From the IMG/VR virus record IMGVR_UViG_3300032208_000014, positions 1-57,328 of that record: a stretch of 57,328 nt of DNA; one strand, given 5' to 3'. Both the position numbers and the translations under genes were made by a program. Source of the DNA: a virus. Within the stretch, counting starts at the first letter, position 1. Every line of letters starts with the position of its first letter. This document shows positions 72 to 54,689 of this stretch, piece by piece. The notes under the pieces were generated by a model, which worked only from the letters and a program-made list of their open reading frames with translations, was not told where the DNA came from and ran no database searches.

Positions 72-542
72 GTGCCGAGGTACAAGGTCATGGAGGAGTG
101 GGATATAGACCCAATGATCGAGTTGGGTGCAGCGATGCACGCGGAGAGTGCCTTTCGTGACTTGGACTATAGTCGTGACAAGTGTTTTCAGTTAGGTGTG
201 CGTTGTATCTCGCACCCTGATCGTTACTTTGGATACTGCGCGTATGAGGGTGACGAGTTGACGGGTATGTTGATTGGTCAGCTGGTGCCTTACTATTTTG
301 GAAATGACCTTCTCGCAAACGACATTCTCTGGTATGTTAGGGAGGACAAGCGTGGTTCGATGATGGGTATTCGTTTGTTGAATGCCTTTAGGGACTGGGC
401 AAAGGAGCGAGGTGCGAGTGAGGTTTGCATTGGCGTTTCGACTGCGTTAGACTTGGATAGGACGCATAAATTGTTGTCACGGATGGGATTTACACATGTT
501 GGTGGCACATTCAAAGAGGCGGTGAAGAATGTTGAAGCTTGA
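72..542 (+). CDS. GNAT-family acetyltransferase-like protein
   Basis: This 156-residue protein has the length and layout of a GNAT N-acyltransferase. A central strand (GMLIGQLV) is followed by a basic loop (REDKRGSMMGIRLLNAF) resembling the acetyl-CoA pyrophosphate loop, then a helix and a C-terminal GF-type strand (LLSRMGFTHVGG). GTG at 72 is preferred because GGAGG at 62-66 lies 5 nt upstream; an in-frame TTG at 60 would overlap that site. The stop overlaps the next gene by 14 nt, so it is the first gene of the late operon. Similar genes sit beside terminase genes in marine phages. The substrate cannot be read from sequence. A role in modifying host or virion proteins is only a guess. Confidence 0.75.
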   Translation: MPRYKVMEEWDIDPMIELGAAMHAESAFRDLDYSRDKCFQLGVRCISHPDRYFGYCAYEGDELTGMLIGQLVPYYFGNDLLANDILWYVREDKRGSMMGIRLLNAFRDWAKERGASEVCIGVSTALDLDRTHKLLSRMGFTHVGGTFKEAVKNVEA

Positions 543-11251: not shown

Positions 11252-12163
11252 ATGGCTATTTCACGCGCACAACTCGCGAAAGAGCTTGAGCCTGGTCTTA
11301 ACGCTCTTTTTGGCATGGAGTACAATAGGTACGAAAACCAACATGCCGAAATTTTCACCACTGAGTCCTCAGATCGTGCATTTGAGGAAGAGGTGATGTT
11401 GTCAGGCTTTGGAGCCGCTCCGACTAAGTCGGAAGGTTCTGCCGTCAGTTTTGACGATGCCAACGAAGCATTCACCGCTCGGTACAACCATGAAACCATT
11501 GCACTGGCATTCTCAATCACTGAGGAAGCAGTCGAAGATAACCTGTATGACCGCTTGTCATCTCGTTATACTCGTGCTCTTGCCCGTTCAATGGCTCACA
11601 CAAAGCAGGTTAAAGCTGCATCTATCCTGAACAATGCATTTACCGCTGGCGCGTCAGCTGGTGGTGACGGTGTTGCTCTGTGTGATGCATCACACCCGCT
11701 TACAAACGGCAACACGTTTGCAAACGAACCCGGAACAGCTGCTGATCTGAACGAAACTTCTTTGGAAGACGCTTTGATCAACATCGCAGGTTTTGTTGAC
11801 GAACGTGGCCTGAAAGTTGCACTGCGTGGCACAAAGCTGATCATTCCGCGTCAGCTTCAGTTCATTGCAGAGCGTCTGATGGTGTCTAACCTTCGTGTTG
11901 GAACTGCTGACAACGATGTAAACGCACTTCGGTCAATGGGAATGTTGCCGGACGGCTACGCTGTCAACGACTTCTTGACAGACCCAGATGCGTTCTTCAT
12001 CATGACAGATGCACCTCGTGGCTTCTTGCACTTTGAGCGTGTTCCTCTGTCAACTCAGATGGAAGCAGACTTCGACACAGGCAACATGCGGTTCAAGGCT
12101 CGTGAGCGTTACAGCTTCGGCTTTTCTGACCCACGTTGCGTGTTCGGTTCACCCGGCGCATAA
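11252..12163 (+). CDS. Major capsid protein
   Basis: This 303-residue coat protein is of the Mu gpT-like/HK97-type group common in marine podoviruses. It shows the characteristic RAFEEEVMLSGFGAAP and YNHETIALAFSITEEAVEDN segments, ARSMAHTKQVKAASILNNAF, a HPLTNGN loop and a C-terminal RERYSFGFSDPR. The N-terminal arm, residues 3-24 (ISRAQLAKELEPGLNALFG and on), is repeated almost exactly in an unrelated small gene at 48704-48769. The gene ends 23 nt before a strong terminator, as expected for the most highly expressed product. Confidence 0.9.
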   Translation: MAISRAQLAKELEPGLNALFGMEYNRYENQHAEIFTTESSDRAFEEEVMLSGFGAAPTKSEGSAVSFDDANEAFTARYNHETIALAFSITEEAVEDNLYDRLSSRYTRALARSMAHTKQVKAASILNNAFTAGASAGGDGVALCDASHPLTNGNTFANEPGTAADLNETSLEDALINIAGFVDERGLKVALRGTKLIIPRQLQFIAERLMVSNLRVGTADNDVNALRSMGMLPDGYAVNDFLTDPDAFFIMTDAPRGFLHFERVPLSTQMEADFDTGNMRFKARERYSFGFSDPRCVFGSPGA

Positions 12164-12281: not shown

Positions 12282-12764
12282 TTGGCTAATACAACATTTA
12301 ACGGTCCCGTCCGTTCAGAAAACGGGTTCAAGACAATCATCAAAAACTCCACAACTGGTGCTCTCACCAACGAAATGACTTTGTCTACCTACAGCACTTC
12401 AATCACAATCGCTGCATCTGGTACAGATCATAAAGAATCATCTATTGGTATTCCGTCTAACTTTATTCCTATGGGCGTTGCCATCACAGTAACAAGTGCT
12501 GCGGCTAACAACGTGAACTTGGTTGATATTGGCACAGACGCTGACACAGATGGTTTCGTAGACGGCATCGCTGTTGCTATTAACTCAACAGGGTTCAAAG
12601 GTTTCTTCCCTTGTAACGGTGTACTGGGCATGTCTGGTGGAACAACTACCGCTGCTACAGAGACTGCTGACGAAGTTGAAGTTGTGATTTCCGGCACAGC
12701 AGGTGCTGGTGGCGTTGTTGCTCTGAAGTTCTTTGGTATTGCTTCTGATTCACCAACTGCTTAA
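12282..12764 (+). CDS. Structural protein (TTG start)
   Basis: This 160-residue Thr/Gly/Ala-rich beta protein begins MANTTFNGPVRSENGFK, a start seen in marine phage virion proteins. TTG at 12282 is supported by AGGAG at 12271-12275, 6 nt upstream, with no ATG nearby. It is the first gene after the coat terminator. One cysteine is in FFPCNGV. It is probably a head-decoration or connector-region protein; no motif decides. Confidence 0.7.
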   Translation: MANTTFNGPVRSENGFKTIIKNSTTGALTNEMTLSTYSTSITIAASGTDHKESSIGIPSNFIPMGVAITVTSAAANNVNLVDIGTDADTDGFVDGIAVAINSTGFKGFFPCNGVLGMSGGTTTAATETADEVEVVISGTAGAGGVVALKFFGIASDSPTA

Positions 12765-12776
12765 TAGGAGGCTGAC

Positions 12777-13049
12777 ATGGCTGCTTCTATTACAGCAAAA
12801 ACAGCAACAGCTACAGGCACCTTGCTTGGTGGCAGAACTCGTCTAAAAGCGTTCTATGTAAAGACCGCTGGTAGTGGTTCACCTGCGGTTGTTTTTAAGA
12901 ACGGTTCTGGTGGTGCAACATTGTTGTCAATGGTCTTTCACACATCTGATGATAATCAGATAACAATACCCGATCACGGTATTGTGTTTGATGATGAATG
13001 CCATGTTACGTTGACCAACGTAGACTCAATTACAGGGTTCTTCGGCTGA
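12777..13049 (+). CDS. Small beta-rich structural protein
   Basis: This 90-residue protein (TLLGGRTRLKAFYVKTAG, then HGIVFDDECHVTLTNVD) resembles short virion proteins that follow the coat gene in marine podoviruses. It has an all-beta look, with no membrane segment. GGAGG sits 5-6 nt before ATG. The stop overlaps the next start (TGATG). Its role is unknown. Confidence 0.65.
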   Translation: MAASITAKTATATGTLLGGRTRLKAFYVKTAGSGSPAVVFKNGSGGATLLSMVFHTSDDNQITIPDHGIVFDDECHVTLTNVDSITGFFG

Positions 13050-13336
13050 TGGCACGCGCCCCGAAAAAGATGCCGAAACGAAACAAGAAAAATTTCCGCC
13101 CCACTGAAAAAGGGGCGGGAATGACTAAAGCTGGTGTCAAGGCTTACCGCCGTGCCAATCCTGGGTCAAAGTTAAAGACGGCTGTTACGGGCAAAGTAAA
13201 GAAAGGCTCGAAAGCAGCAAAACGCCGCGCATCATATTGTAGCCGTTCAAAAGGGCAGATGAAGATGCATAATATTAATTGTAGTAAAACACCGAAAAAG
13301 CGCATTTGCGCGGCTCGGCGGAGATGGAAGTGTTGA
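13049..13336 (+). CDS. Very basic small protein with conserved Cys (DUF6321-like)
   Basis: Of 95 residues, 33 are Lys or Arg. Landmarks are KAGVKAYRRANPGSKLKTAV, KKGSKAAKRRASYCSRSKGQM and the end ARRRWKC. This layout matches a family of basic phage and bacterial proteins that I recall as DUF6321, not verified here. ATG 13049 is chosen for its TGATG overlap; an upstream in-frame start would run far into the previous gene. It is the first of four consecutive very basic proteins (13.05-14.14 kb). A nucleic-acid-binding, perhaps packaged, role is an inference from charge. Confidence 0.75.
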   Translation: MARAPKKMPKRNKKNFRPTEKGAGMTKAGVKAYRRANPGSKLKTAVTGKVKKGSKAAKRRASYCSRSKGQMKMHNINCSKTPKKRICAARRRWKC

Positions 13337-13557
13337 ACTTGAACAGCATCATAGGTGGCGCAACGTTAGGATTCATTGGTTGGATAGCTTTTAGCGTGGT
13401 TGATTTGAAGACAGAAACGGCTGTTATAGCTGTTAAAGTTGATCAAAATCATAAAATGTTAGCAGAGCTTTGGGATTATTATCTTCAAGACAGGGTGAAT
13501 AATGACAATATCGCGTGGGCAACTCGCAAGCCAGATATCAAAATCACCTCGAACTAA
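13324..13557 (+). CDS. Small membrane protein
   Basis: At 77 residues from ATG 13324 (TTG 13306 is possible), it has one membrane helix (IIGGATLGFIGWIAFSVV) followed by a coiled segment (KTETAVIAVKVDQNHKMLAEL). It overlaps the end of the preceding basic gene by 13 nt and the start of the next by 56 nt. The pattern of one helix plus a short coil recurs in marine phages among head genes. The function is unknown. Confidence 0.55.
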   Translation: MEVLNLNSIIGGATLGFIGWIAFSVVDLKTETAVIAVKVDQNHKMLAELWDYYLQDRVNNDNIAWATRKPDIKITSN

Positions 13558-25282: not shown

Positions 25283-26001
25283 TGTTCGGCGAACTGTCGA
25301 TATCAGAAAACCCGCTTGCCACCCAAGGCATTGTGCTTTTTGGGTCTGAATCGCTTGACGCAAACTTCACGCAGTCAACAGACTTATCCGCCATACTTAA
25401 CGGTAGTATGTCGGTTGATGCTTTCTTCTCAAAGGTGTCCGCAGCGGCGGGGACGCTGGTTGCTGAAATAGAAATTACATCTGACTTTACACAGACCACA
25501 CAGGGGCTGCGTTTTGCTACTGGCGTGGCTGACTTAGATTTTCAGTTTGACCAGACAACAGCGGCAAACCTTACAGCGTCTGGTGACGCATCAGTTGATG
25601 CTAACTTCACACAGACAAGCACCGCAGTCAAAGTAGCCTCTGGCGTAGCTCAAGTAGACTTTAACTTCACACAAACATCCGCTGCTATAGCTATACTTTA
25701 CTTGCTCAGTGACCAAACTGCACAATTTGATTACGACCCACTAGGTGGTTTGCTGCTTAGAACAGGGCTGAGTATGGATTCTCAGTTCGACATTACGCAG
25801 GCTCTGGGCGGGTTCTTGCGCTTTGCGGCGCAGACAATGGACAGTGTGTTTATTATGACGGCAGATGGTGCTATACTCTGGGTAAAGGTTGACGCAGGTG
25901 GTACACCAGAAAGCTGGACACAGGTGACACACACAGGCGATAGCTGGACTGAAATAAACGCAGGCACATCGTCTGAAACATGGACAAACAAGGTGGTATA
26001 A
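25282..26001 (+). CDS. Repetitive tail protein (FTQT repeats)
   Basis: At 239 residues, it is built from degenerate repeats of roughly 20-25 residues with the core V/L-D-x-x-F-T-Q-T/S (SLDANFTQSTDLSAIL, EIEITSDFTQTTQGLRFATG, ASVDANFTQTSTAVKVASG, QVDFNFTQTSAAI). The C-terminal Trp-rich part (ESWTQVTHTGDSWTEINA) has SxxW repeats. Such repeats suggest an elongated beta-stack or shaft. No homologue is named with confidence. Confidence 0.65.
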   Translation: MFGELSISENPLATQGIVLFGSESLDANFTQSTDLSAILNGSMSVDAFFSKVSAAAGTLVAEIEITSDFTQTTQGLRFATGVADLDFQFDQTTAANLTASGDASVDANFTQTSTAVKVASGVAQVDFNFTQTSAAIAILYLLSDQTAQFDYDPLGGLLLRTGLSMDSQFDITQALGGFLRFAAQTMDSVFIMTADGAILWVKVDAGGTPESWTQVTHTGDSWTEINAGTSSETWTNKVV

Positions 26002-30707: not shown

Positions 30708-31576
30708 TGTCAACCGTTACTTCAACCTCACAATCTCTTCCTGCGTATCAGGAAGAGTATTTAAAAAACTTACTGTCTAGTGCAGAAGGGTTAGCCAATC
30801 AGCCGACCACAATTCCCGATTATCAAGTTGCGGAGATGACACCCGCCCAACAACGGGCTATTCAACTTGGTATTGATGGCATAGGCGCGTATCAGCCTAT
30901 GATGCAGGCAGGTGCTACGACACTAGGTCAGGGCGTAGCCGCCCTAACACCATCTGGCTACCAGCAATTTATGAATCCATACATCGACCAAGTTGTAGAT
31001 CAAAGTATGCAGGATTTACAGCGTCAGGCAGACATTGAGCGTCAGCGGATTGGTTCTGGTGCCATACAAAGCGGTGCTTTTGGTGGCTCTCGTCAGGCGG
31101 TGGCAGAACAAGAACTACAGAGAAATACAGCCGATGCAATGGCTCGTCAGTCTGGACAGCTTCGCTCACAAGCGTTTGAAAGCGCACAGAACAGAGCACA
31201 GCAAGCAGGAGAACTGTTTGGTAAGCTCGGACTCCAACAAGCTGCGCTAGGCGAATCCGCGCAAGCTGCACAACAACGAGATATCGGCATCTTGTCTCAG
31301 TTAGGTGGTCAAGAGCAACAACAGATGCAGGCCGAGATTGACGCACAACGTGCCACGAGCCTTGAACGCCAGTACGAACCATATCAGCGAATTGGCTTTA
31401 TGTCTGACATTTTCCGTGGTGTACCAACACAAACACAGACACTGACTTCCACAACTGCACCTAAACCAAGTCTGTTTTCACAAATAGGTGGTATCGGCAT
31501 GGGTATCGCGGGACTTCAACAAGCAGGTGCGTTTGGTGAGGGCGGGTTGTTCAGTAGCATATTTAATAGAGGTTAG
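30707..31576 (+). CDS. Internal virion protein, Gln/Ala-rich
   Basis: At 289 residues from ATG 30707 (TGATG), it is helical, Gln/Ala/Gly-rich, with conserved AYQEEYLKNLLSSAEGLANQ, YQQFMNPYIDQVVDQSMQDL and GAIQSGAFGGSRQAVAEQEL. A short hydrophobic Gly-rich stretch is near the end (IGGIGMGIAGLQ). This profile matches the second ejection-type protein in this phage group. Confidence 0.7.
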   Translation: MSTVTSTSQSLPAYQEEYLKNLLSSAEGLANQPTTIPDYQVAEMTPAQQRAIQLGIDGIGAYQPMMQAGATTLGQGVAALTPSGYQQFMNPYIDQVVDQSMQDLQRQADIERQRIGSGAIQSGAFGGSRQAVAEQELQRNTADAMARQSGQLRSQAFESAQNRAQQAGELFGKLGLQQAALGESAQAAQQRDIGILSQLGGQEQQQMQAEIDAQRATSLERQYEPYQRIGFMSDIFRGVPTQTQTLTSTTAPKPSLFSQIGGIGMGIAGLQQAGAFGEGGLFSSIFNRG

Positions 31577-37934: not shown

Positions 37935-39839
37935 CTAGCCTACTTCACCCCAGTTGTCACCAAGTTCTTGATCAACTTTGCTAGGAATTTTTAACTCTAG
38001 GCTCGTTTCCATAATCTCTGTAATACGCGATGCCTGTTGCTCGGACTCGACATTGAAGCATAGTTCGTCATGCACCGTGAGCAACGGCACTAGTCCCTCC
38101 TTGTAACACTCTACCATCGCCTGTTTGGTTTGATCGGCTGCCGAACCTTGGATCAATCTGTTCAATGCCTTGTATGTAAACGCACGCTGCAACGGTTGCA
38201 TGGGATATTCTTTACGCGCCTTGTCTAACGGCAGAGGCTTATTGTACCCAAACTTCTTTGGTTCCCACATATCAAATCTGCATAACCTGCCAAGTATCGT
38301 TCTAATCTGTCCGTGGGCATCGGCTCTTTCCGCCACCATGTCCGCCAAGCCTTTAACAAACGGAACCCTGTTATGGTACTGCTTCAATAGGTCTGTAGCT
38401 TCATCTTTGGTGATATCCATCGTGTTTGCCAGCTTGCCCTTGCCCATACCGTACATGATACCAAGGTTTACCGTCTTAGCCTGTTTGCGCGTAATACCTG
38501 CAAGGTCTGCCACCATTTGATGGAAGTCAGCATCCCCTTTCTTGTATTCTTCAACCACTTCATCAATAGCATAGTGCCTTTGATCGTTTGGTAGGGATGC
38601 ACAGTAATGCACCAAGAGCCTCGGTTCTTGGCTCGAATAGTCGAAGCTGCCCCATTTGCACCCATCATCCGGCACAAACAGGCCACGAATCATGGACTTA
38701 ATCTCTGGGTCACGCGCAGGGATTTGCTGGAGGTTTGGATTACTGGACGAAAATCTACCTGTCACAGTTCCGCCATCATCTGACCGCAGTGGATGAAACT
38801 CGCAGTGTATCCGCCCTTTGTACGAGAACTTTAAAATGTTGTCGATGAATGTATTGCTTGCCTTATCTAGTTCGCGCAGCCTAAGTATGCGTCCTGCAAT
38901 CTCATGTGGGTGGTTCTGTAAAAACTCTTTTCTGAAAGACGGCTGTTTAGTGTCTTCTGTCCGGCTGTAGTAAAGACCATAGTGGTCAAATACTTTTGCC
39001 ACACTGGTTGCTACCCACGGCTGTACCTCGATTCCTGTGTCGTGCTTAATGCCCGAAACAAGTTCTTTCTTTGCCTTAATTAAGCCAGCTTTTGCCTGCT
39101 CGGCTTTGTCTAGATCTACAGCCACACCCTTCTCGCGCATGTCAAGCAGGACAGGTATCAACGCTGTTTCAATGTCAAAGATTGTCATCAGGCTCTGCTG
39201 TTCCAAATCGATACGCATCTGGTTCCACAGCTTTAAGGTAAGTTCTGCATCTTTCTCGGCGTATGCACCCACAAAGCTAGAGTTTAGCTTCCACATCTCA
39301 GCCTTGGGGTCGATGCCAAAGTCCGCCGCTGCGGCTCGAAGAGTGCGCTCATCCTTACGCTCGTTCAGATAATCTTTTGCCAGATTGTTCAGGCTGTAGC
39401 TGAAGCGGTTCTCGTTCAGTAGCGGCGCGGCAATCATGGTGTCGATTATCGTGCCTTGAACCTTGACTCCTGCCCACCGTAGCCAGCCAGCATCGTATGT
39501 GGCGTTGTGCATAATTTTAGGAATGTCTGGTGTAGCCAACTGATCCTTCAGCCAAGACATCACACGCTTCTTTGAAATGTTGCCCCCGCCCTCGTGTGCG
39601 ATTGGGTAGTATCCAACAAAGTCACCAGCTGCGATAGCCACACCTACAATAAAGCCATCGCCCCTTGCCCAGCCAGGACCTAGCGTCATGATGTTGGGGT
39701 CACTTGTTTCCAAGTCAATGGCAATGTAATCCGCGTTACGCAGATCAGGGAAGTGGTCAGGTGGGAACCAATCTTTCTCGATTGTGTCCAAGTCCAGCCT
39801 GTTCAGATAACTAATCTGACTGCTTTCTTTCGAGGTCAT
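37935..39839 (-). CDS. DNA polymerase, family A, with 3'-5' exonuclease
   Basis: This 634-residue replicative polymerase shows exonuclease residues in IDLET (D42, E44), HNATYD (D116) and YAEKD (Y193, D197). Polymerase motif A is FDYSSQEPR (D400, E405), motif B RKQAKTVNLGIMYG (R451, K455, Y463) and motif C VHDE (590-592). The position equivalent to E. coli Phe762 is Leu459 (codon CTT at 38463-38465), a variant well known in marine viruses. ATG 39839 is chosen because GGTGGAGAG lies just upstream; an in-frame ATG at 39878 has no site. There is no 5' nuclease domain. It is the last gene of the replication operon. Confidence 0.93.
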   Translation of the reverse strand: MTSKESSQISYLNRLDLDTIEKDWFPPDHFPDLRNADYIAIDLETSDPNIMTLGPGWARGDGFIVGVAIAAGDFVGYYPIAHEGGGNISKKRVMSWLKDQLATPDIPKIMHNATYDAGWLRWAGVKVQGTIIDTMIAAPLLNENRFSYSLNNLAKDYLNERKDERTLRAAAADFGIDPKAEMWKLNSSFVGAYAEKDAELTLKLWNQMRIDLEQQSLMTIFDIETALIPVLLDMREKGVAVDLDKAEQAKAGLIKAKKELVSGIKHDTGIEVQPWVATSVAKVFDHYGLYYSRTEDTKQPSFRKEFLQNHPHEIAGRILRLRELDKASNTFIDNILKFSYKGRIHCEFHPLRSDDGGTVTGRFSSSNPNLQQIPARDPEIKSMIRGLFVPDDGCKWGSFDYSSQEPRLLVHYCASLPNDQRHYAIDEVVEEYKKGDADFHQMVADLAGITRKQAKTVNLGIMYGMGKGKLANTMDITKDEATDLLKQYHNRVPFVKGLADMVAERADAHGQIRTILGRLCRFDMWEPKKFGYNKPLPLDKARKEYPMQPLQRAFTYKALNRLIQGSAADQTKQAMVECYKEGLVPLLTVHDELCFNVESEQQASRITEIMETSLELKIPSKVDQELGDNWGEVG

Positions 39840-40092
39840 ATATCTCTCCACCCAGTGCTGCGTAACCTGCGATATCAACCCATGTGTCTGTATGTTCTGG
39901 GCTGTTAATTAAACGCGATAGTTTCAAAGAAATCATTGCCTGTACGACCTGCGCAACAGTAACTTCTTGTCCGAATATGGGACTCCATAAGTCTGCTACA
40001 CGCTGGAAATTTTCAGCAGCATCACCATAGTCCTCGGCTCTCGGACCATTGACCAGTCCCTCGGCTTTTTCTAGAAGTTCTTTTCTGTTCAT
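39811..40092 (-). CDS. DUF6378-like protein
   Basis: At 93 residues, the conserved phrases LVNGPRAEDYGDAAENFQRV, ADLWSPIFG, MISLKLSRLINSPEHTDTWV and DIAGYAALGGEIY fit the phage family I know as DUF6378 (unverified). The helical build resembles small nucleotide-pool hydrolase folds, but no catalytic set is clear. It is coupled to the helicase upstream (overlap 4 nt) and to polymerase downstream. Confidence 0.75.
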   Translation of the reverse strand: MNRKELLEKAEGLVNGPRAEDYGDAAENFQRVADLWSPIFGQEVTVAQVVQAMISLKLSRLINSPEHTDTWVDIAGYAALGGEIYDLERKQSD

Positions 40093-41609
40093 ATGTCGTA
40101 CCTGTATTTAGCCTCGTGGTCTACGATGTGTAAGTTTTCTTTTGCGCGAGTGATGCCTGTGTAAAACACTCGATGTTCATCGTCTTGGTCAGGGTTGTTC
40201 ACGGCAGGCCAACAAGACTCCGTAAACAACATGATATTATCGTCCTCACCACCTTTCATGCGGTGAATTGTAGACAGCTTTATGCGTGGGGTTTTAAGCG
40301 ATTCGCCTCGGAGTTGCAGAGCAGCAACATACCTTCTATCCTCCTTGGACATATTAACTATGTCCGCCGCTGGAGTGTCCATCCCAGCTATAAGTCCATG
40401 ATTTTCAACAAGTATATCATAGCCGTATAAACCCTCTGGGTCTAGTGCAGACAATGATTTTATAGAACCACGCTTGACAACGGCATTATCACCCGCCTTG
40501 GGCACTGCCTCATACAACTTAATCAGTGCGTCATGACTAACAACCTTGCCTTCCGCCAAGGCGTTCCAAATGTTCATGACCTCTAGCATTGTTTCGTTGA
40601 TGCTAAGTTTGTTGTTGATTCTAAAGAGATAGCCGTCATCCCGAAGCTGATGCGCTATCTTTGTAATGATTTTGTTAGTCCGCCCCATGATAGTCCACGA
40701 ACCCTGATCTACATCAATGTCATACCAGCTGCTATGAAACTGCACATCTCCGTGTCGCTCCATTGGGTTCCAGTCTTTTTGATAACGGTAGTCAATCCGC
40801 CTCACGACACTGTTAGCTAGAGAAAACACAGATTGCGGTACGCGATAGCTTTGCGTCAGAACGGTCTTGTTATCACAAGCGTTCATAAACTGCCCTACAT
40901 CTACGCCGTTCCAACGGTGGATACACTGGTCATCGTCACCTGCATACCAGACACGCTCGGCATTCTCTTTAACAACCTGAACCTGCTTCCACTGCAACGG
41001 TGTCAGGTCCTGGGCCTCGTCTACAATCAGAACATCTAACTGAGGTGCTGTGCCTTGCTCCACAAACAATTCAATCATGTCTGTAAAATCATACTTGTTG
41101 TTGTCGGCCTTGTAGTCAGCGTACACATGGTCAATATGAAGCAACTGTTCCCAATGTAGGTCGTAGTCGGCTCTGTCGTTAAACTCATCCTCTATCAAAA
41201 TGCACCGCATCTTGGCTCTGGATATTATTGACAAATACTTATTGCCCATCTGGTGCGACATAGGTATCAGCCCCTCGCCCATTTGTTCGGACGTACTGGA
41301 ATCAAACCTAACCCCAAGATCCCATTCTAATGCTTGCAAGTCTGTAGGTCCGATAACGTTTTGTTTTTCCATGCCCAACCACGCAAAGCCTAATGCGTGT
41401 AGTGTCTTGAACCACGGCAAGTCGTTGATCTCCAGATTAAACTTGCCCATAGCCCTGTCTCTTGCTTCCTCGATTGATTTCTTAGAGAAAGAAACAAAAC
41501 CTATGCGGTCAGGAGGCGTACCATTATCAAGCTCCTTCTGCATGATTTCCATCAAGGTATGGGTCTTACCGCATCCAGGTGGTCCGAATATAAGAGTTTC
41601 AGTCGGCAT
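40089..41609 (-). CDS. UvrD/Rep-like superfamily 1 helicase
   Basis: At 506 residues, Walker A is GPPGCGKT (near residues 8-15), Walker B IVDEAQDLTPLQ, motif III AGDDDQCIHRW, motif IV QSYRVP, motif V STIHRMKGGEDDNI and motif VI FYTGITRAKENL. The complete set indicates an active 3'-5' DNA helicase. ATG 41609 starts inside the upstream HTH gene. It probably unwinds DNA for the phage polymerase or repairs forks. Confidence 0.9.
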   Translation of the reverse strand: MPTETLIFGPPGCGKTHTLMEIMQKELDNGTPPDRIGFVSFSKKSIEEARDRAMGKFNLEINDLPWFKTLHALGFAWLGMEKQNVIGPTDLQALEWDLGVRFDSSTSEQMGEGLIPMSHQMGNKYLSIISRAKMRCILIEDEFNDRADYDLHWEQLLHIDHVYADYKADNNKYDFTDMIELFVEQGTAPQLDVLIVDEAQDLTPLQWKQVQVVKENAERVWYAGDDDQCIHRWNGVDVGQFMNACDNKTVLTQSYRVPQSVFSLANSVVRRIDYRYQKDWNPMERHGDVQFHSSWYDIDVDQGSWTIMGRTNKIITKIAHQLRDDGYLFRINNKLSINETMLEVMNIWNALAEGKVVSHDALIKLYEAVPKAGDNAVVKRGSIKSLSALDPEGLYGYDILVENHGLIAGMDTPAADIVNMSKEDRRYVAALQLRGESLKTPRIKLSTIHRMKGGEDDNIMLFTESCWPAVNNPDQDDEHRVFYTGITRAKENLHIVDHEAKYRYDI

Positions 41610-41820
41610 CAACCTTGTCCCGTGGCCTGTTTGCTAACCAATCCTCAACCTCGGAACGCAACCAACGTGTGGTGCTGTTCTGGTCTGCTTCTGGTCCTAG
41701 CACTACTGGCTTTGGGAAATGATCTTGGTCTACCCATCGGTAGATTGTGGAACGGGCAACGCCCAACCAATCTGTCAGGTCACCCACCTTCAGGTAACGA
41801 TCATCAGAATGGGATGTCAT
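41599..41820 (-). CDS. AlpA-like helix-turn-helix regulator
   Basis: At 73 residues, YLKVGDLTDWLGVARSTIYR, WVDQDHFPKPVVLGP and TRWLRSEVEDWLANRPRDK match the AlpA/HTH_17 (MerR-like) winged-helix pattern found in phage regulators and excisionases. Nested inside the replication operon with overlaps on both sides, it may regulate that operon. No integrase gene is present, so a pure excisionase role is unlikely. Confidence 0.8.
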   Translation of the reverse strand: MTSHSDDRYLKVGDLTDWLGVARSTIYRWVDQDHFPKPVVLGPEADQNSTTRWLRSEVEDWLANRPRDKVDAD

Positions 41821-43336
41821 TTTCTATCTCCTTCTTTGGAATATGAACTTCGTTATCGTCAAACTCTGGAACAAACCAAACGCGGACATTTTGCCATCGC
41901 CCTGTCTTGTCATCCTTGAGCTTGTAGTATGTGTTACAGTCACCACCGTTGTTTAAAATCTTCAGTCGTTCCTGTATCTGTGGCCTGTTAAGCTGCACGA
42001 AGTTTCGTGATCGTAAAAACTCTTGCAACCCCTTCATCGTAAAGAACGTCAAATCGTTCTCTGTCCACGGCTTACCAAGCCGTAGTTCTTCTGGTGCTCT
42101 CGCACGAATCCTGCTTGTACAAAAGATTTCCAAAAGTTCTTCAAACTGACCTGTGGTAGTCAGTTCTTTCGGCACCTCAATCGCCGTAGCAGTAGACATC
42201 AGATTGTTTACAAGCTGTTGCCAATCCGCTGGCTTCATGGTCGGAGGCATAAAATCAATTTGCTCCATACACGCACGTTGAAACTGCAACGGCATTTGCA
42301 GTTGTTCAGTAGACAACTCCAACCGCTGACCATTGACATCCAAGAAGTACAGGCGCGGGTCAGACTTCAGAATAGTAAGACCGCCCATAGATGGAGCCGC
42401 AGCGGAACCGCCCACACCATGTTCCATCGTCCGGCATTGGTCACGATTACAATAACTAGACATCGGCTCTTCCTTACATTTGTAGCCGTACTTGTCTTTT
42501 TCGATTGACTTCTGCAACGTGACCACTTCGTCCGCTGGCATCGGTGGTTTACATATCTTCTGGTTCCACGACTCTAGCTTCTTTTTCCAGTCGTCTGGAT
42601 ACTTCTTGCGTAAGAACACACCTGTATGAAACATAGCGTTGTTCCGCATACCCTGTGGTATGCCCATCAATACAAGGTTCTTGATACATGGTATCAGGCC
42701 GTCAAACTCATCGCTCTTAGTCTCAAACTTCAAAGCGTTCAACGCATCCAATGTAGTGCGTTTCTTTTCAATAACCTTCAAGAAATCAAGTAACTCAAGT
42801 TCTTCCCCCTTATCATCAAAAGCATATCGCACAGTGTTCTCGCTATCGAAGTATGGCAGGTTGATAAAGTTACCAACATCGCCACGGTCAGCGAGGATCT
42901 GATCTTGTTTTGGAAATATTTCACAGCCAGAAAAGCCGAGCACCGCAGAGAACTCGGTCAGACAGTCGCGCATGTCTACAGCCCTAATCCACTCTTTTGT
43001 GAACAGGTAGAGATGTGCACCACCAGATTTAGAACGACAAACTACAAACGGTATCTTGAGTTGCTTGCACTTCTTGGCTATCTCGGCATGGTCGATAGGG
43101 TACTTGTCAATGTCCAATACACCGAACTTACACATATTCTTATCATTAATAGGAATTGATCCCACACCTTTTTCACCATTGATATGTTGTGCAATTAACT
43201 CCTTTGTAAGCGGCTGTTTGACGATAAAACTTTTAGCTTCTGTTTTACCATTACGGCGTTGCTGTCCGATTGTGGTTTGACCGTGGGCGGCATCCGATCC
43301 CTCGAATGCCGCCGCAAAACGATCAACAATATCCAT
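41804..43336 (-). CDS. Archaeo-eukaryotic-type primase with SSB-like tail
   Basis: At 510 residues, AEP-type motifs are GVLDIDKY (D75-D77 region) and CRSKSGGAHLYLF (His108), with QDQILADRGDVGNFINLPYF following. A Cys cluster is near residues 285-300 (YKCKEEPMSSYCNRDQC), and a C-terminal helical domain follows. The protein ends EIENDIPF, identical in its last four residues to the SSB of this phage (HEDDIPF) and to E. coli SSB (DDDIPF). It probably makes primers for the family A polymerase. TOTE-type and phage primase-helicase relatives are alternatives, but no helicase motifs are present. Confidence 0.8.
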   Translation of the reverse strand: MDIVDRFAAAFEGSDAAHGQTTIGQQRRNGKTEAKSFIVKQPLTKELIAQHINGEKGVGSIPINDKNMCKFGVLDIDKYPIDHAEIAKKCKQLKIPFVVCRSKSGGAHLYLFTKEWIRAVDMRDCLTEFSAVLGFSGCEIFPKQDQILADRGDVGNFINLPYFDSENTVRYAFDDKGEELELLDFLKVIEKKRTTLDALNALKFETKSDEFDGLIPCIKNLVLMGIPQGMRNNAMFHTGVFLRKKYPDDWKKKLESWNQKICKPPMPADEVVTLQKSIEKDKYGYKCKEEPMSSYCNRDQCRTMEHGVGGSAAAPSMGGLTILKSDPRLYFLDVNGQRLELSTEQLQMPLQFQRACMEQIDFMPPTMKPADWQQLVNNLMSTATAIEVPKELTTTGQFEELLEIFCTSRIRARAPEELRLGKPWTENDLTFFTMKGLQEFLRSRNFVQLNRPQIQERLKILNNGGDCNTYYKLKDDKTGRWQNVRVWFVPEFDDNEVHIPKKEIENDIPF

Positions 43337-50578: not shown

Positions 50579-50684
50579 TTTTACCTCCGTAAATTTGAAA
50601 CCAATGGTCAGTGCAGTACGCCCGATTTCCATCGAGCGCATCCGCCTTTTTATCGCATTTATCGCATTTTCTGATACTAAGCAT
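50481..50684 (-). CDS. Small Cys-rich protein after the methyltransferase
   Basis: At 67 residues, ATG 50684 overlaps the methyltransferase stop. It reads MLSIRKCDKCDKKADALDGN, RAYCTDHWFQIYGGK. Cys-x2-Cys followed by a Cys-x2-His suggests a treble-clef-like zinc site. The second half overlaps 50390-50578 in another frame and looks less protein-like, so the true end may differ. Confidence 0.5.
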   Translation of the reverse strand: MLSIRKCDKCDKKADALDGNRAYCTDHWFQIYGGKNGKSQGMADGYGRGRDGHEPRSVGREAWYVVR

Positions 50685-51813
50685 TCATCCCCCTCATCAA
50701 GTGACAGATAACATCAACCGTCCATCCATTACCAAGCATACGATACCGCTGGGTATTTGACACATGATTTGTGTAATTTTCTGGAACGGTCTGTAAACGC
50801 TCACATTCTAAAGGCGTAAGCTTACGCCATTGAAGCTGGTCAATGTCAGCCACAATGCTGTCCTTATATATGGTGGACAGACAATTCGACTTCTCATCTT
50901 CTCGCACCTCGACCCTTGATTTGAGGGGAATGGACTTGTCGTTATCTTTGCGCTTGCCATTCTCATCGAGCCTGCGTTTCACGATCCTCGCACCTCGAAG
51001 CAACACTTTTGGTTCAAGATTGCCACCAGATGCCGCGCACAAACTTGGGGCTTTGCCGTCTGGATCATAAACCCTGCGATTATAATCGTGACCCTTCAAG
51101 TCTGCGTGCCCAGCCAATATCAAGCCTGTGCCATCCAACTCCATGTCGAACACAAGCTGTCTGCGATTTTTCTGAAAATATGACTTCAGATTACCGCCCT
51201 TGAAATAGTTCGCATCTATGCAATGCGACTTGTCACGGTCAGTCCAGCCATCTTCGAGAATATCTTTGAGCATGATATTTCGGTTGCGTGGTGCACCCTC
51301 GACAGGGATGTTTGTCCAATACAGGCGGTCACGATTTTGCGCTGACACCAGATTAGAATTTATCCTGATAGGTTCGACCCCAAGCTGACTGGAAATTACA
51401 TCCTGATATTCCTGTTTCATATTAACATTCTCAAGCAGGAAATATTTTGGCTTCAACTCCCTCAACAGGCGCACATATTCAAAAAACAATTTACTGCGTG
51501 GGTCGTCAAAGTTCAGTTGCTTGCCAGCAAACGAAAACCCCTGACAGGGCGAACCGCCAATCAATATGTCTATCGTGTGTCGAAAGAAACCCTTTTCGAG
51601 GTCAACACCATTATGAGCGACACACAAACGCCCATCCTTGGTTTTAAGTTTGGTCACATCGCCCATGTGTATCGTGTCAGGATAATTGGCCTTCGCAACT
51701 TGGATTGCATATTTGTCAATTTCTGACGCGAAATAATTTTCGACCTTGAAGCCGCACCGCTCAAGAGCGATGCGACCACAAGACATTCCATCAAATAAAC
51801 TAAGAACGTTCAT
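50677..51813 (-). CDS. DNA (cytosine-5) methyltransferase
   Basis: At 378 residues, it shows motif I LSLFDGMSCGRIALERCGF, motif IV GGSPCQGFSFAG with catalytic Cys90, motif VI LLENVN, motif VIII QNRDRLYWTN, motif IX KLTPLECERLQTVPENYT and motif X YRMLGNGWTVDVICHL. All parts of an active Dcm/DNMT-type enzyme are present. The target-recognition region is about residues 185-310. It probably methylates phage DNA against host restriction; no restriction enzyme is beside it. Confidence 0.9.
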   Translation of the reverse strand: MNVLSLFDGMSCGRIALERCGFKVENYFASEIDKYAIQVAKANYPDTIHMGDVTKLKTKDGRLCVAHNGVDLEKGFFRHTIDILIGGSPCQGFSFAGKQLNFDDPRSKLFFEYVRLLRELKPKYFLLENVNMKQEYQDVISSQLGVEPIRINSNLVSAQNRDRLYWTNIPVEGAPRNRNIMLKDILEDGWTDRDKSHCIDANYFKGGNLKSYFQKNRRQLVFDMELDGTGLILAGHADLKGHDYNRRVYDPDGKAPSLCAASGGNLEPKVLLRGARIVKRRLDENGKRKDNDKSIPLKSRVEVREDEKSNCLSTIYKDSIVADIDQLQWRKLTPLECERLQTVPENYTNHVSNTQRYRMLGNGWTVDVICHLMRGMNA

Positions 51814-52235: not shown

Positions 52236-52419
52236 TTTCGTCCTCCATAGTATAATGAAACTTGAACCCCGAACCCGAACACTTGTGACAATCAACAACG
52301 TCACCATAGTTATCAGCCTCGAAACCGTGGCCGCAGCACCAATCACAGTACACACCAAACTCGATGCGTGAACCTTGAACCACGAGCCTTGTATCTTGAA
52401 CCTCGCTTACATAAGCCAT
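52225..52419 (-). CDS. Second mini zinc-finger protein (CxxCxGxG)
   Basis: At 64 residues from ATG 52419 with GGAGG 5 nt upstream. YCDWCCGHGF and CHKCSGSGF give two DnaJ-type Cys-x2-Cys-x-Gly-x-Gly motifs. The N-terminal EVQDTRLVVQGSR is encoded by a short repetitive DNA stretch (12-base word plus a related copy). First gene of the 48.4-52.4 kb minus-strand operon. Confidence 0.7.
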   Translation of the reverse strand: MAYVSEVQDTRLVVQGSRIEFGVYCDWCCGHGFEADNYGDVVDCHKCSGSGFKFHYTMEDENGN

Positions 52420-52480
52420 TTTTACCTCCATGTAATAAGACTTTATATAATATACTACTACAAGACAACATAGGACACAA
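52420..52480 (-). promoter_or_regulatory. AT-rich promoter region for the minus-strand operon
   Basis: Read on the minus strand, TTGTCT is followed 15 nt later by TATAAA, then the GGAGG of the gene at 52419. The spacing is short, so the exact promoter is uncertain, but the AT-rich block before a long operon is the expected place. Confidence 0.4.
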
Positions 52481-52496
52481 GATATAATATGCAAAT

Positions 52497-52785
52497 GTTT
52501 GTCACGTTTGTCACATATATAGAAGGATTTCCTGAAAAAAAAAAAATAAAAAAAATATTTCCAGACGGTGTGACAAGTGTGACAAGTGTGACAAGGGGGG
52601 TTAAACACATGAAAAACAACAATACTGCTTGTCACGTTTGTGTCACGTTTGTCACGGTACTAAGGGGGTTTTGGTATTTTCCCATATATATAGCTTGTGG
52701 AATTATGTCTAAGTTTTTGCTAAAACAGGGGGAGAAGTGTGACAAGTGTGACAAATTGAGAGGACAACCGTGACAAGTGTGACAA
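52497..52785. repeat. Iteron-like array of TTGTCAC/GTGACAA with an A-tract
   Basis: Eleven perfect copies of the heptamer TTGTCAC (on either strand) lie in 289 bp. Plus-strand copies are at 52499, 52508, 52629 and 52649. Inverted copies GTGACAA are at 52570, 52579, 52588, 52739, 52748, 52770 and 52779, mostly as 9-bp tandem units. A run of A with few T (52535-52557) lies between the first groups. No convincing gene fills 52420-52769: the frame that spans it is just repeated Val-Thr-x codons. The array ends inside the first codons of terS. It could be a replication origin, packaging site or operator. Confidence 0.75.
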
Positions 52786-53321
52786 CAATAGAAGAGGACG
52801 ACAAACAGGTAAATAATCGCCAGCGCGAATTTGCTCGTTATTATGTGGAGGGCATATATTCAAATGCTGAATGTGCTAGAAAAGCTGGTTACTCTCCTGC
52901 CTCTGCCATGTCGATGGCATCTAAATTATTGAACGGCTCATATGCTCCTCATGTTGTGGAGTATATACAAGAACTCCGACAGGAACGTGAAAGGCGATAT
53001 GGCGTGACCGTCATTGGTCAGCTGAAAAGACTGGACGAACTTTCGAGAGGGGCTGAAGATGCTGGTCAATTCTCAGCTGCAATCAACGCTGAAAAAATCC
53101 GTTCCGCTCTGGGTGGGTTGACTGTCGATAGACGAGAACAAATCCACCAGCTTGACGATATGACAAAAGAAGATATCGCCCTGCGGCTCAGTGAACTTCG
53201 GAAGCAATATCCGCAGGCGTTTATCGAGGGTACATATACGGAGAAAACGGATGCTAGAGAAAAACTTTTGGTCAGCAGTAAAGAAGAACCTGCCACCGAA
53301 ATCCTTTCCGACACGGATTGA
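52770..53321 (+). CDS. terS: Terminase small subunit
   Basis: This 183-residue DNA-recognition subunit has conserved QREFARYYVEGIYSNAECAR, KAGYSPASAMSMASKLLNGS, EYIQELRQERERRYGVTVIG, RLDELSRGAEDAGQFSAAIN and AEKIRSALGGLTVDRREQ, typical of a phage small terminase with an N-terminal helix-turn-helix and helical oligomerisation core. GTG 52770 lies within the repeat array, so the protein could control itself. It sits on a plus-strand island inside minus-strand genes and is about 6 kb from terL only if the ends join. Confidence 0.88.
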   Translation: MTSVTTIEEDDKQVNNRQREFARYYVEGIYSNAECARKAGYSPASAMSMASKLLNGSYAPHVVEYIQELRQERERRYGVTVIGQLKRLDELSRGAEDAGQFSAAINAEKIRSALGGLTVDRREQIHQLDDMTKEDIALRLSELRKQYPQAFIEGTYTEKTDAREKLLVSSKEEPATEILSDTD

Positions 53322-53712
53322 AAACAGGCATGGGGGTGGTGTTCCTGATGTTCATGTTGTGTGGGATTGTTTGCCCTTCTGGGTAGAATTAAAAGTAAGC
53401 AAAGGAAAGGGTGTAAATCTCTCGCCCCAACAAATTGCGTGGAATACCGCATATTCTCGTTGTGGAGGGGTTTCATTCATCTTGGTTAAAGGGACAAGGT
53501 CGGGCGACCTATTTTTATTTGAGGGCAGTCGGGCGGCTGAAATCGGGGAAATCGGGCTTGCAGCGGAACCTTTGTATCGGGGTCGGGACTGGACAGAGCT
53601 ATGGGACAGGGTTCGGGACTCGTGGTTCGGGGATCGGGGTTCCAGGGTCGGGGCTATCGGGTCGGGGGTCCAGGCCCAGGACTCACCAGTCCAAGGGGTC
53701 AGTATGAACTGA
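53251..53712 (+). CDS. PD-(D/E)XK-type nuclease
   Basis: At 153 residues from ATG 53251, overlapping terS by 71 nt. The core HGGGVPDVHVVWDCLPFWVE, LKVSKGKGVNLSPQQIAWN shows Asp and Glu-x-Lys of a VRR-NUC or Holliday-junction-resolvase-like fold, then YSRCGGVSFILVK. The last 45 residues are encoded by a G-rich repetitive stretch (53535-53690) and look unlike the family, so they may be a recent addition. It may resolve DNA before packaging. Confidence 0.75.
   Translation: MLEKNFWSAVKKNLPPKSFPTRIENRHGGGVPDVHVVWDCLPFWVELKVSKGKGVNLSPQQIAWNTAYSRCGGVSFILVKGTRSGDLFLFEGSRAAEIGEIGLAAEPLYRGRDWTELWDRVRDSWFGDRGSRVGAIGSGVQAQDSPVQGVSMN
53629..53668 (+). repeat. G-rich island 1 (G-quadruplex motif)
   Basis: Six runs of three to five G (53629, 53636, 53645, 53650, 53659, 53664) are separated by 2-5 bases on the plus strand, enough for a G-quadruplex. 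It lies within the 3' end of the nuclease gene and is built on TCGGG units as at 54.8 and 56.2 kb. Confidence 0.6.
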
Positions 53713-53884: not shown

Positions 53885-54090
53885 TCAAATGCCTCCCTTG
53901 CTATCTGTCTTAGTTTTGCTGCGTGCTTCCTTTCCTCTAAGGTCGCTTCCCTTGCCTGATCATCCCATTCGAGAAGATCCTCTAAACTATCAAAGCCTAG
54001 ATCCGCGTCTTTTGGATCAGGCGTGTCTGTTAACGTGCCATCCGGCTGTAGGTAAAAAGGCCAGCTGTCACTCATTACATACATTTTCAT
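53881..54090 (-). CDS. Small acidic protein
   Basis: At 69 residues (KMYVMSDSWPFYLQPDGTLT, DSLEDLLEWDDQAREATLEE, RKHAAKLRQIAREAFE), it starts on the previous gene's ATGA. A beta start and C-terminal charged helix. Unknown function. Confidence 0.6.
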   Translation of the reverse strand: MKMYVMSDSWPFYLQPDGTLTDTPDPKDADLGFDSLEDLLEWDDQAREATLEERKHAAKLRQIAREAFE

Positions 54091-54689
54091 TTTACCGCCT
54101 CCACAATTTGAGAAACTCCGTTATTAGGAATGTAGCAAAGCAAACAGTCTTTGCATTTTTGACCTGTGCAATTCTGCACTGTCTCACTGTCAGGTGACAC
54201 GTTGTTAAATGTTCTGTCGAAGAATCGCGGTGGTGTGTCCATAACCGCATCAATGCGCGGATTGGAATAGATAAGGATTAAATTGTCCGGCTTGTCGTTC
54301 TGTAAATAGAACTTGCGGATGAATCCCTTGCGCTTAGTCCATAGCGCGAACTTTGTATGCGGATTGTGTAACGCGATGTTGTGCAAGTTTTCAAGATGCG
54401 TCATATTGATTAATTCGCCATGACCTTGAAACCGAACAAACGCTTGTAGGAATGTTGGCAATAAATGAGTTGGAATGATGCCAAGTGATAAAGCTTGGCT
54501 ATTCCGTTCCCATGCCGGAATGCATCCCTTGCGGAATGTTTCTAACATCTCGACTGAATAGCATTTTGTGCAGATGATATCATCCGAGCCGCACGCGTGC
54601 ATTTTTTGGCAATAAGGATTCGATAGCGTGTTAGTATTAACAGCTTTGAAATCCTCAAGCTTGCCTGTCATATTTGAAATTGTAAGCAT
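54087..54689 (-). CDS. GP88-like protein with two Cys clusters
   Basis: At 200 residues, it has LSNPYCQKMHACGSDDIICT, KCYSVEM near the N terminus and CTGQKCKDCLLCY near the C terminus. Middle phrases THLENLHNIALHNPHTKFAL, WTKRKGFIRKF resemble the GP88 family of phages and bacteria, in which paired Cys clusters may hold an Fe-S centre. Family assignment is from memory and moderate. Confidence 0.6.
   Translation of the reverse strand: MLTISNMTGKLEDFKAVNTNTLSNPYCQKMHACGSDDIICTKCYSVEMLETFRKGCIPAWERNSQALSLGIIPTHLLPTFLQAFVRFQGHGELINMTHLENLHNIALHNPHTKFALWTKRKGFIRKFYLQNDKPDNLILIYSNPRIDAVMDTPPRFFDRTFNNVSPDSETVQNCTGQKCKDCLLCYIPNNGVSQIVEAVK

Follow-up and report, generated by a model that had tools for sequence, protein, structure and literature searches.

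What reads the short repeats that lie directly in front of the small terminase gene of an environmental phage, and what purpose they serve, is the question raised by a stretch of 57,328 nucleotides of viral DNA (record IMGVR_UViG_3300032208_000014 of IMG/VR), which is called the window here. Within it, a region of 287 base pairs (bp) at 52499–52785 holds eleven exact copies of the heptamer GTGACAA, read as TTGTCAC on the opposite strand, the last two of which coincide with the first codons of terS (52770..53321, plus strand, with a GTG start at 52770; PF03592, PHROG 51). An earlier note, drawn up from the letters of the sequence, had proposed that this array could be an origin made of iterons and easily melted DNA, a packaging site bound by the small terminase TerS, or an autoregulatory operator. 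The first of these options is the best supported by our analysis: the array is probably an origin of replication, and its iterons would be read by the primase that the phage itself encodes, through the winged helix at the C-terminal end of this protein.

The array in the window and in related phages

The copies are organized in four blocks whose orientation runs from two reverse to three forward, two reverse (together with a degenerate copy) and four forward, with a pitch of 9 bp between tandem copies inside the blocks. Block 1 (52499..52514, minus strand) contains two units and is separated by an A/T tract (52535..52561), a candidate unwinding element, from the three tandem units of block 2 (52570..52594, plus strand), a block that is also present in relatives. 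Block 3 (52629..52655, minus strand) comprises exact units at 52629 and 52649 and the degenerate GTGTCAC at 52640, which brings the sites to 12 if included, and block 4 (52739..52785, plus strand) has its units at 52739, 52748, 52770 and 52779. Blocks 2 and 3 are inverted repeats of each other, and an isolated extra copy of the unit is found at 52285. The heptamer occurs 25 times in either orientation in the whole window (shuffles: mean 10.9, maximum 19), and only about 0.06 copies would be expected by density in the array region. The description given in the earlier note, with eleven copies in both orientations, an A-rich tract of about 25 bp among them, an entry into the first terS codons and a chance expectation far below one copy, is thus confirmed. 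A 94-residue open reading frame that spans the array (52489–52773) has no family match and is probably spurious, and a blastn search of the array region against cultured phages gave no match.

In a nearest-neighbour stability scan, the 40-bp segment with the lowest stability in the 57-kilobase (kb) record begins near 52433, immediately to the left of block 1. The array region falls within the least stable 0.21% in 25 of 25 records and is the global minimum in 8 of them. Both multiple short repeats at a regular pitch and adjacent, easily melted A/T-rich DNA, as expected of an iteron origin, are therefore present at this locus; since AT-rich intergenic DNA is common, the low stability supports an origin and is not proof of it.

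A search with TerS retrieved 80 viral loci, and four more scans raised the collection to 199 unique IMG/VR loci with the full upstream region. An array is found upstream of terS in most of them, with a peak of same-strand spacing at 9 bp, and 165 of the 199 loci beat all 40 shuffles. Units were called by exact k-mers and framing by eye, expectation-maximization motif finding having been dropped because it drifted to A-tracts and palindromes. They differ between phages and include GTGACAA, GTAACAA, GGGACAA, GTAAACA, GTAATCA, GTAACGA, GTATCCA and GTACTAA, the curated set amounting to 21 different 7-bp units. All copies within one array have changed together: between near-identical phages, every copy of the unit is altered against a background of largely constant spacer DNA. 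The earlier note had asked whether the repeat is kept near terS in relatives: the layout is, and the sequence is not, an outcome that the note did not anticipate. The cultured relatives are the Pelagibacter phages HTVC023P and HTVC027P and two others, with TerS proteins only 33–35% identical; in HTVC023P a CTAGGAAA array lies upstream of terS.

Covariation of the repeat unit with the primase wing

A gene-by-gene comparison of the contigs L106 and L107, whose units are GTAAACA and TGACTCA, showed an archaeo-eukaryotic-type primase (AEP) that is 97% identical between them, with the changes clustered near its C-terminal end. In the window this primase is encoded at 41804..43336 (minus strand), 9 kb from the array, and the variable patch corresponds to residues 462–475 (NNGGDCNTYYKLKD; 41912..41953, minus strand), which reach into the first wing strand (468–474) of the C-terminal domain. 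The same region has also changed between L109 and L111 (GTAATCA and GTAAATC). Array and primase could be taken from the same contig at 70 loci, 57 of them non-redundant. When closely related primases belong to arrays of different units, their bodies diverge by 8% and residues 462–475 by 32%; when the unit is shared, the divergence is 6% in body and patch alike. Among pairs sharing no genome, the patch difference separates different-unit from same-unit pairs with p = 0.0002 (Mann–Whitney). In the cleanest pair, the primases of G075 and G076, of about 510 residues, are distinguished only by I463T, G465S and Q470L, and their units are GATACAA and GTTACAA; the patch TKxNI, in turn, goes with GTACTCA in the distinct lineages L576 and L538. 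We relied on close pairs and leave-clade-out tests because a partial Mantel analysis over sliding primase windows, in which window 98–105 ranked first, was confounded by deep clades and was dropped.

Within the patch, the identity of residue 472 follows that of base 5 in the unit, and this column has the highest association with the base among all primase and TerS columns: alanine goes with A, asparagine and glutamine with T, histidine, lysine and arginine with C, and threonine with G. Pairs with at least 75% body identity gave 22 co-changes of residue and base, 0 changes of the base only and 4 of the residue only. Base 5 was predicted from residue 472 in 50 of 53 leave-clade-out tests, in which only primases less than 70% identical were used, against 28 of 53 for the commonest base. 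As column 472 had been selected as the best of many, more weight belongs to these leave-clade-out tests and to the pairs collected after the initial two. A column scan of UvrD, PolA, the products of 43339 and 44167, SNF2, the small 41599 protein and TerS revealed none comparable to residue 472.

The assignment of the protein rests on Pfam (PF22548 AEP-TOTE and a weak PriCT-1), PHROG 21866 and Foldseek, in which the N-terminal part matches CRISPR-associated Prim-Pol structures; phmmer found no primase relative in the PDB. AlphaFold2 models of the C-terminal domain (residues ~424–490; 41867..42067, minus strand) show helices at 434–443 and 451–461 followed by strands at 468–474 and 481–490, which form the wing, so that the domain as modelled folds as a winged helix; the variable patch precedes the first wing strand and extends into it. 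Fold comparison gave a VIA Z of 6.8 with PadR-like winged helices, 6.2 with TcpK (level with PadR-like winged helices, and a weak fold match), 5.8 with SCCmec Cch and 5.0 with SaPIbov1 Rep, and TcpK of pCW3 occupied the top Foldseek rows at a weak E of 0.1. The origin-binding domain of P4 alpha is absent among the listed fold matches, which is not evidence against similarity.

The likely reader is a primase belonging to a replication module with a UvrD-like helicase (40089..41612, minus strand; PF00580, E 1.9e-24) and a family A DNA polymerase (37935..39878, minus strand; PF00476, E 6.6e-61), and this, together with the least stable DNA of the record, is why we favour an origin. Iteron origins are further marked by a replication protein that the element itself encodes and whose specificity matches the repeats; here such a match is seen through the covariation of residues 462–475, and of residue 472 in particular. 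We infer that the 7-bp iterons, at 9-bp pitch and in opposed blocks around the A/T tract, would be physically bound by the winged helix of the primase, with base contacts largely on the wing (468–474). The bound primase would then melt the A/T tract or hold it open and make primers at this site; extension would be the task of the phage's UvrD-like helicase and DNA polymerase A, and the locus would thereby have origin activity. Patch and iterons would diversify together, leading to at least 21 cognate specificities. The chances seem about even for a broader proposal, in which an AEP-type primase alone serves as the origin-binding initiator in a large environmental phage group and β-wing residues act as a recognition code (472 for base 5), re-set many times along with all iteron copies, a turnover that origin-directed nucleases, satellites or competing phages may have driven.

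Points against an origin read by the primase, and other readings

Several observations weigh against this interpretation. G043 (L066) and G044 (L072) have identical TerS and array regions (555/555 bases), yet their primase bodies are only 59% identical and residue 472 is arginine in one and serine in the other; either the primase was exchanged recently, or a contig is chimeric, or the code has its limits. The rule for residue 472 is also broken by G071 and by one of the two serine cases. The code at other positions, where glutamine 470 occurs with a purine at base 2 and lysine 470 mostly with C at base 3, is less secure because of deep clade structure, bases other than 5 being confounded with deep phylogeny. 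At 34 of the 199 loci, including the L034 group, arrays are too short to beat the shuffles, degenerate or absent; mixed or degenerate arrays occur in G010, G011, G013, G018, G029, G060, G087 and L596; and the framing by eye concerns 70 loci. Only weak fold matches were obtained for the C-terminal domain, as Foldseek E values never drop below 0.1 and VIA Z values do not exceed 6.8. Finally, the column scan covered only TerS and genes near the primase.

Among the alternatives, the one that fares best, although we consider it improbable, is an operator, at which the C-terminal domain of the primase, or a protein of the same specificity, would regulate divergent transcription and not the start of replication. 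The array does lie in a divergent intergenic region, and promoter-like hexamers overlap some units, in a scan only slightly above shuffles. However, an origin is indicated by the nature of the inferred reader, a primase, and by the A/T tract and the stability minimum of the record at this locus, and the array persists in G012 though terS is no longer downstream of it. The autoregulatory operator of the earlier note, insofar as TerS would be its reader, is contradicted by the findings on TerS described below.

It is quite unlikely that another phage or host protein, outside those scanned, reads the array and that the primase patch follows indirectly. Besides the limited reach of the scan, the fact that UvrD and PolA are never identical in different-unit pairs leaves some room for such a reader, but no column of the scanned proteins is remotely as good as primase residue 472, and the three-residue difference between G075 and G076, as well as the agreement of residue and base across clades, is most simply explained by direct reading. 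The upstream minus-strand gene was rejected as a candidate: over the stretch seen, it is the same in L222 and L225, although their units differ.

Packaging sites offer a precedent for repeats at the small-terminase gene, as in lambda cosB and SPP1 pac, which are read by TerS (gpNu1 and G1P, respectively). A cos or pac site bound by TerS, which was also our first hypothesis on account of a hypervariable helix in this protein, would fit an array that, in most relatives, immediately precedes terS and runs into it, with repeats in two orientations around an A-tract. Nevertheless, TerS is 100% identical between L106 and L107, between L109 and L111, and between L221 and L222 (GTCAACA and GTTCTCA), all pairs with different units. 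No TerS column covaries with the array, the best showing 11 co-changes against 11 changes of the base only. In G012, of the L034 lineage, terS has moved about 24 kb away, into the tail gene cluster, without an array, and a similar array has been left at the old site, beside the homologue of window 53191–53712, which follows terS in the window. Since identical TerS proteins go with different units, no TerS residue tracks the unit and the array stays when terS moves, TerS is not the specificity determinant, in contrast to lambda cosB and SPP1 pac. The specificity of the site does not follow the small terminase, and the packaging site suggested by the earlier note becomes very improbable. As to the hypervariable helix (residues ~41–56 of the window TerS, inside a strongly conserved N-terminal domain), it does not follow the array, and its DNA target may be the true packaging site.

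That inverted copies such as blocks 2 and 3 are maintained by pairing, in a structured RNA or a DNA hairpin, is scarcely credible, as unit spacing differs between arms and between relatives, tandem copies within one arm share the unit, which pairing does not need, and the covariation is with a protein patch.

Known initiators and neighbouring features

The proposed origin and initiator share traits with several known systems. In phage P4, origin repeats are bound by a winged helix of the alpha protein (PMC4234260). The window primase likewise unites a modelled winged helix with its primase domain in one polypeptide, but P4 alpha combines a Toprim-type primase with unwinding activity in a single protein, whereas the window protein is an archaeo-eukaryotic-type primase in which Pfam shows no helicase domain (the helicase being a separate gene), and there are many cognate specificities in one phage group. 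ORF904 of pRN1, an archaeo-eukaryotic primase joined to a winged helix (PMC4234260), resembles the window protein in the C-terminal position of this domain; it differs in its superfamily 3 (SF3) helicase domain, in a stem-loop as the suggested origin and in having no iterons, and a diversification of cognate pairs is not reported in the available part of that article.

Coordinated change has been described for PLE, whose initiator RepA has a DNA-binding domain that covaries with the iterons and is swapped along with them; the two must form a cognate pair, and the origin-directed nuclease Odn of ICP1 attacks RepA/iterons, selecting for change (PMC8263062). By analogy, attack by an Odn-like nuclease is a possible driver of unit turnover in the present phages. 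PLE is, however, a satellite with a RepA_N domain and three semi-palindromic iterons of ~30 bp, and it changes by whole-domain swaps, compared with point changes in the wing here. SaPI Rep and SCCmec Cch2 read short repeats with the C-terminal domain of the initiator (PMC7581432), to which the Z values for SaPIbov1 Rep and SCCmec Cch refer, but there the reader is a helicase and the origin lies directly downstream of its gene. In its reading mode the proposed system resembles TcpK of plasmid pCW3, a winged helix whose β-wing reads tandem 9-nt boxes (PMC6137059), as we propose for the primase; TcpK is a relaxosome accessory protein acting at an origin of transfer, not a primase.

In a survey of 80 uncultivated HTVC023P-type genomes, the terms 'origin of replication' and 'iteron' are absent from the main text (PMC9599517). 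If our interpretation is right, it places the replication origin of a widespread environmental phage group. It would also provide a large natural set of protein–DNA specificity swaps in which proteins and scaffolds are near-identical and only the reader patch and the repeat have changed, making it possible to test directly by what route a winged helix acquires a new specificity when 6 to 12 sites have to change with it, and which forces lie behind the turnover. Orthogonal origin/initiator pairs would, in addition, be useful tools.

Other repeats and genes were recorded around terS and terL, the latter (PHROG 38) being as clearly assigned as terS. Heptamer repeats downstream of terS were examined as a candidate packaging site. 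The intergenic DNA of G001–G006 contains dispersed TTGCGCC heptamers, numbering 3 to 13 and often arranged head to tail, for the most part 0.8–2.2 kb downstream of terS (for example, G005 12460–13545); the corresponding repeats are of CCCGACC type in the window and G007, and of CCTGCGC type in G008 and G009. Dense short repeats also occur away from terS (contig coordinates): CCTGAGC x25 at 25300 in G014, AGCCAGA x24 at 11950 in G025, ACTCAAC x13 at 25350 in G004 and CTTTAGC x11 at 30800 in G024. Close to the array, the window encodes a C5 cytosine DNA methyltransferase (50677–51813, minus strand; PF00145, E 1.1e-46) and, between terS and the end of the record, a GP88-family protein (54087–54689, minus strand; PF17338, E 1e-5).
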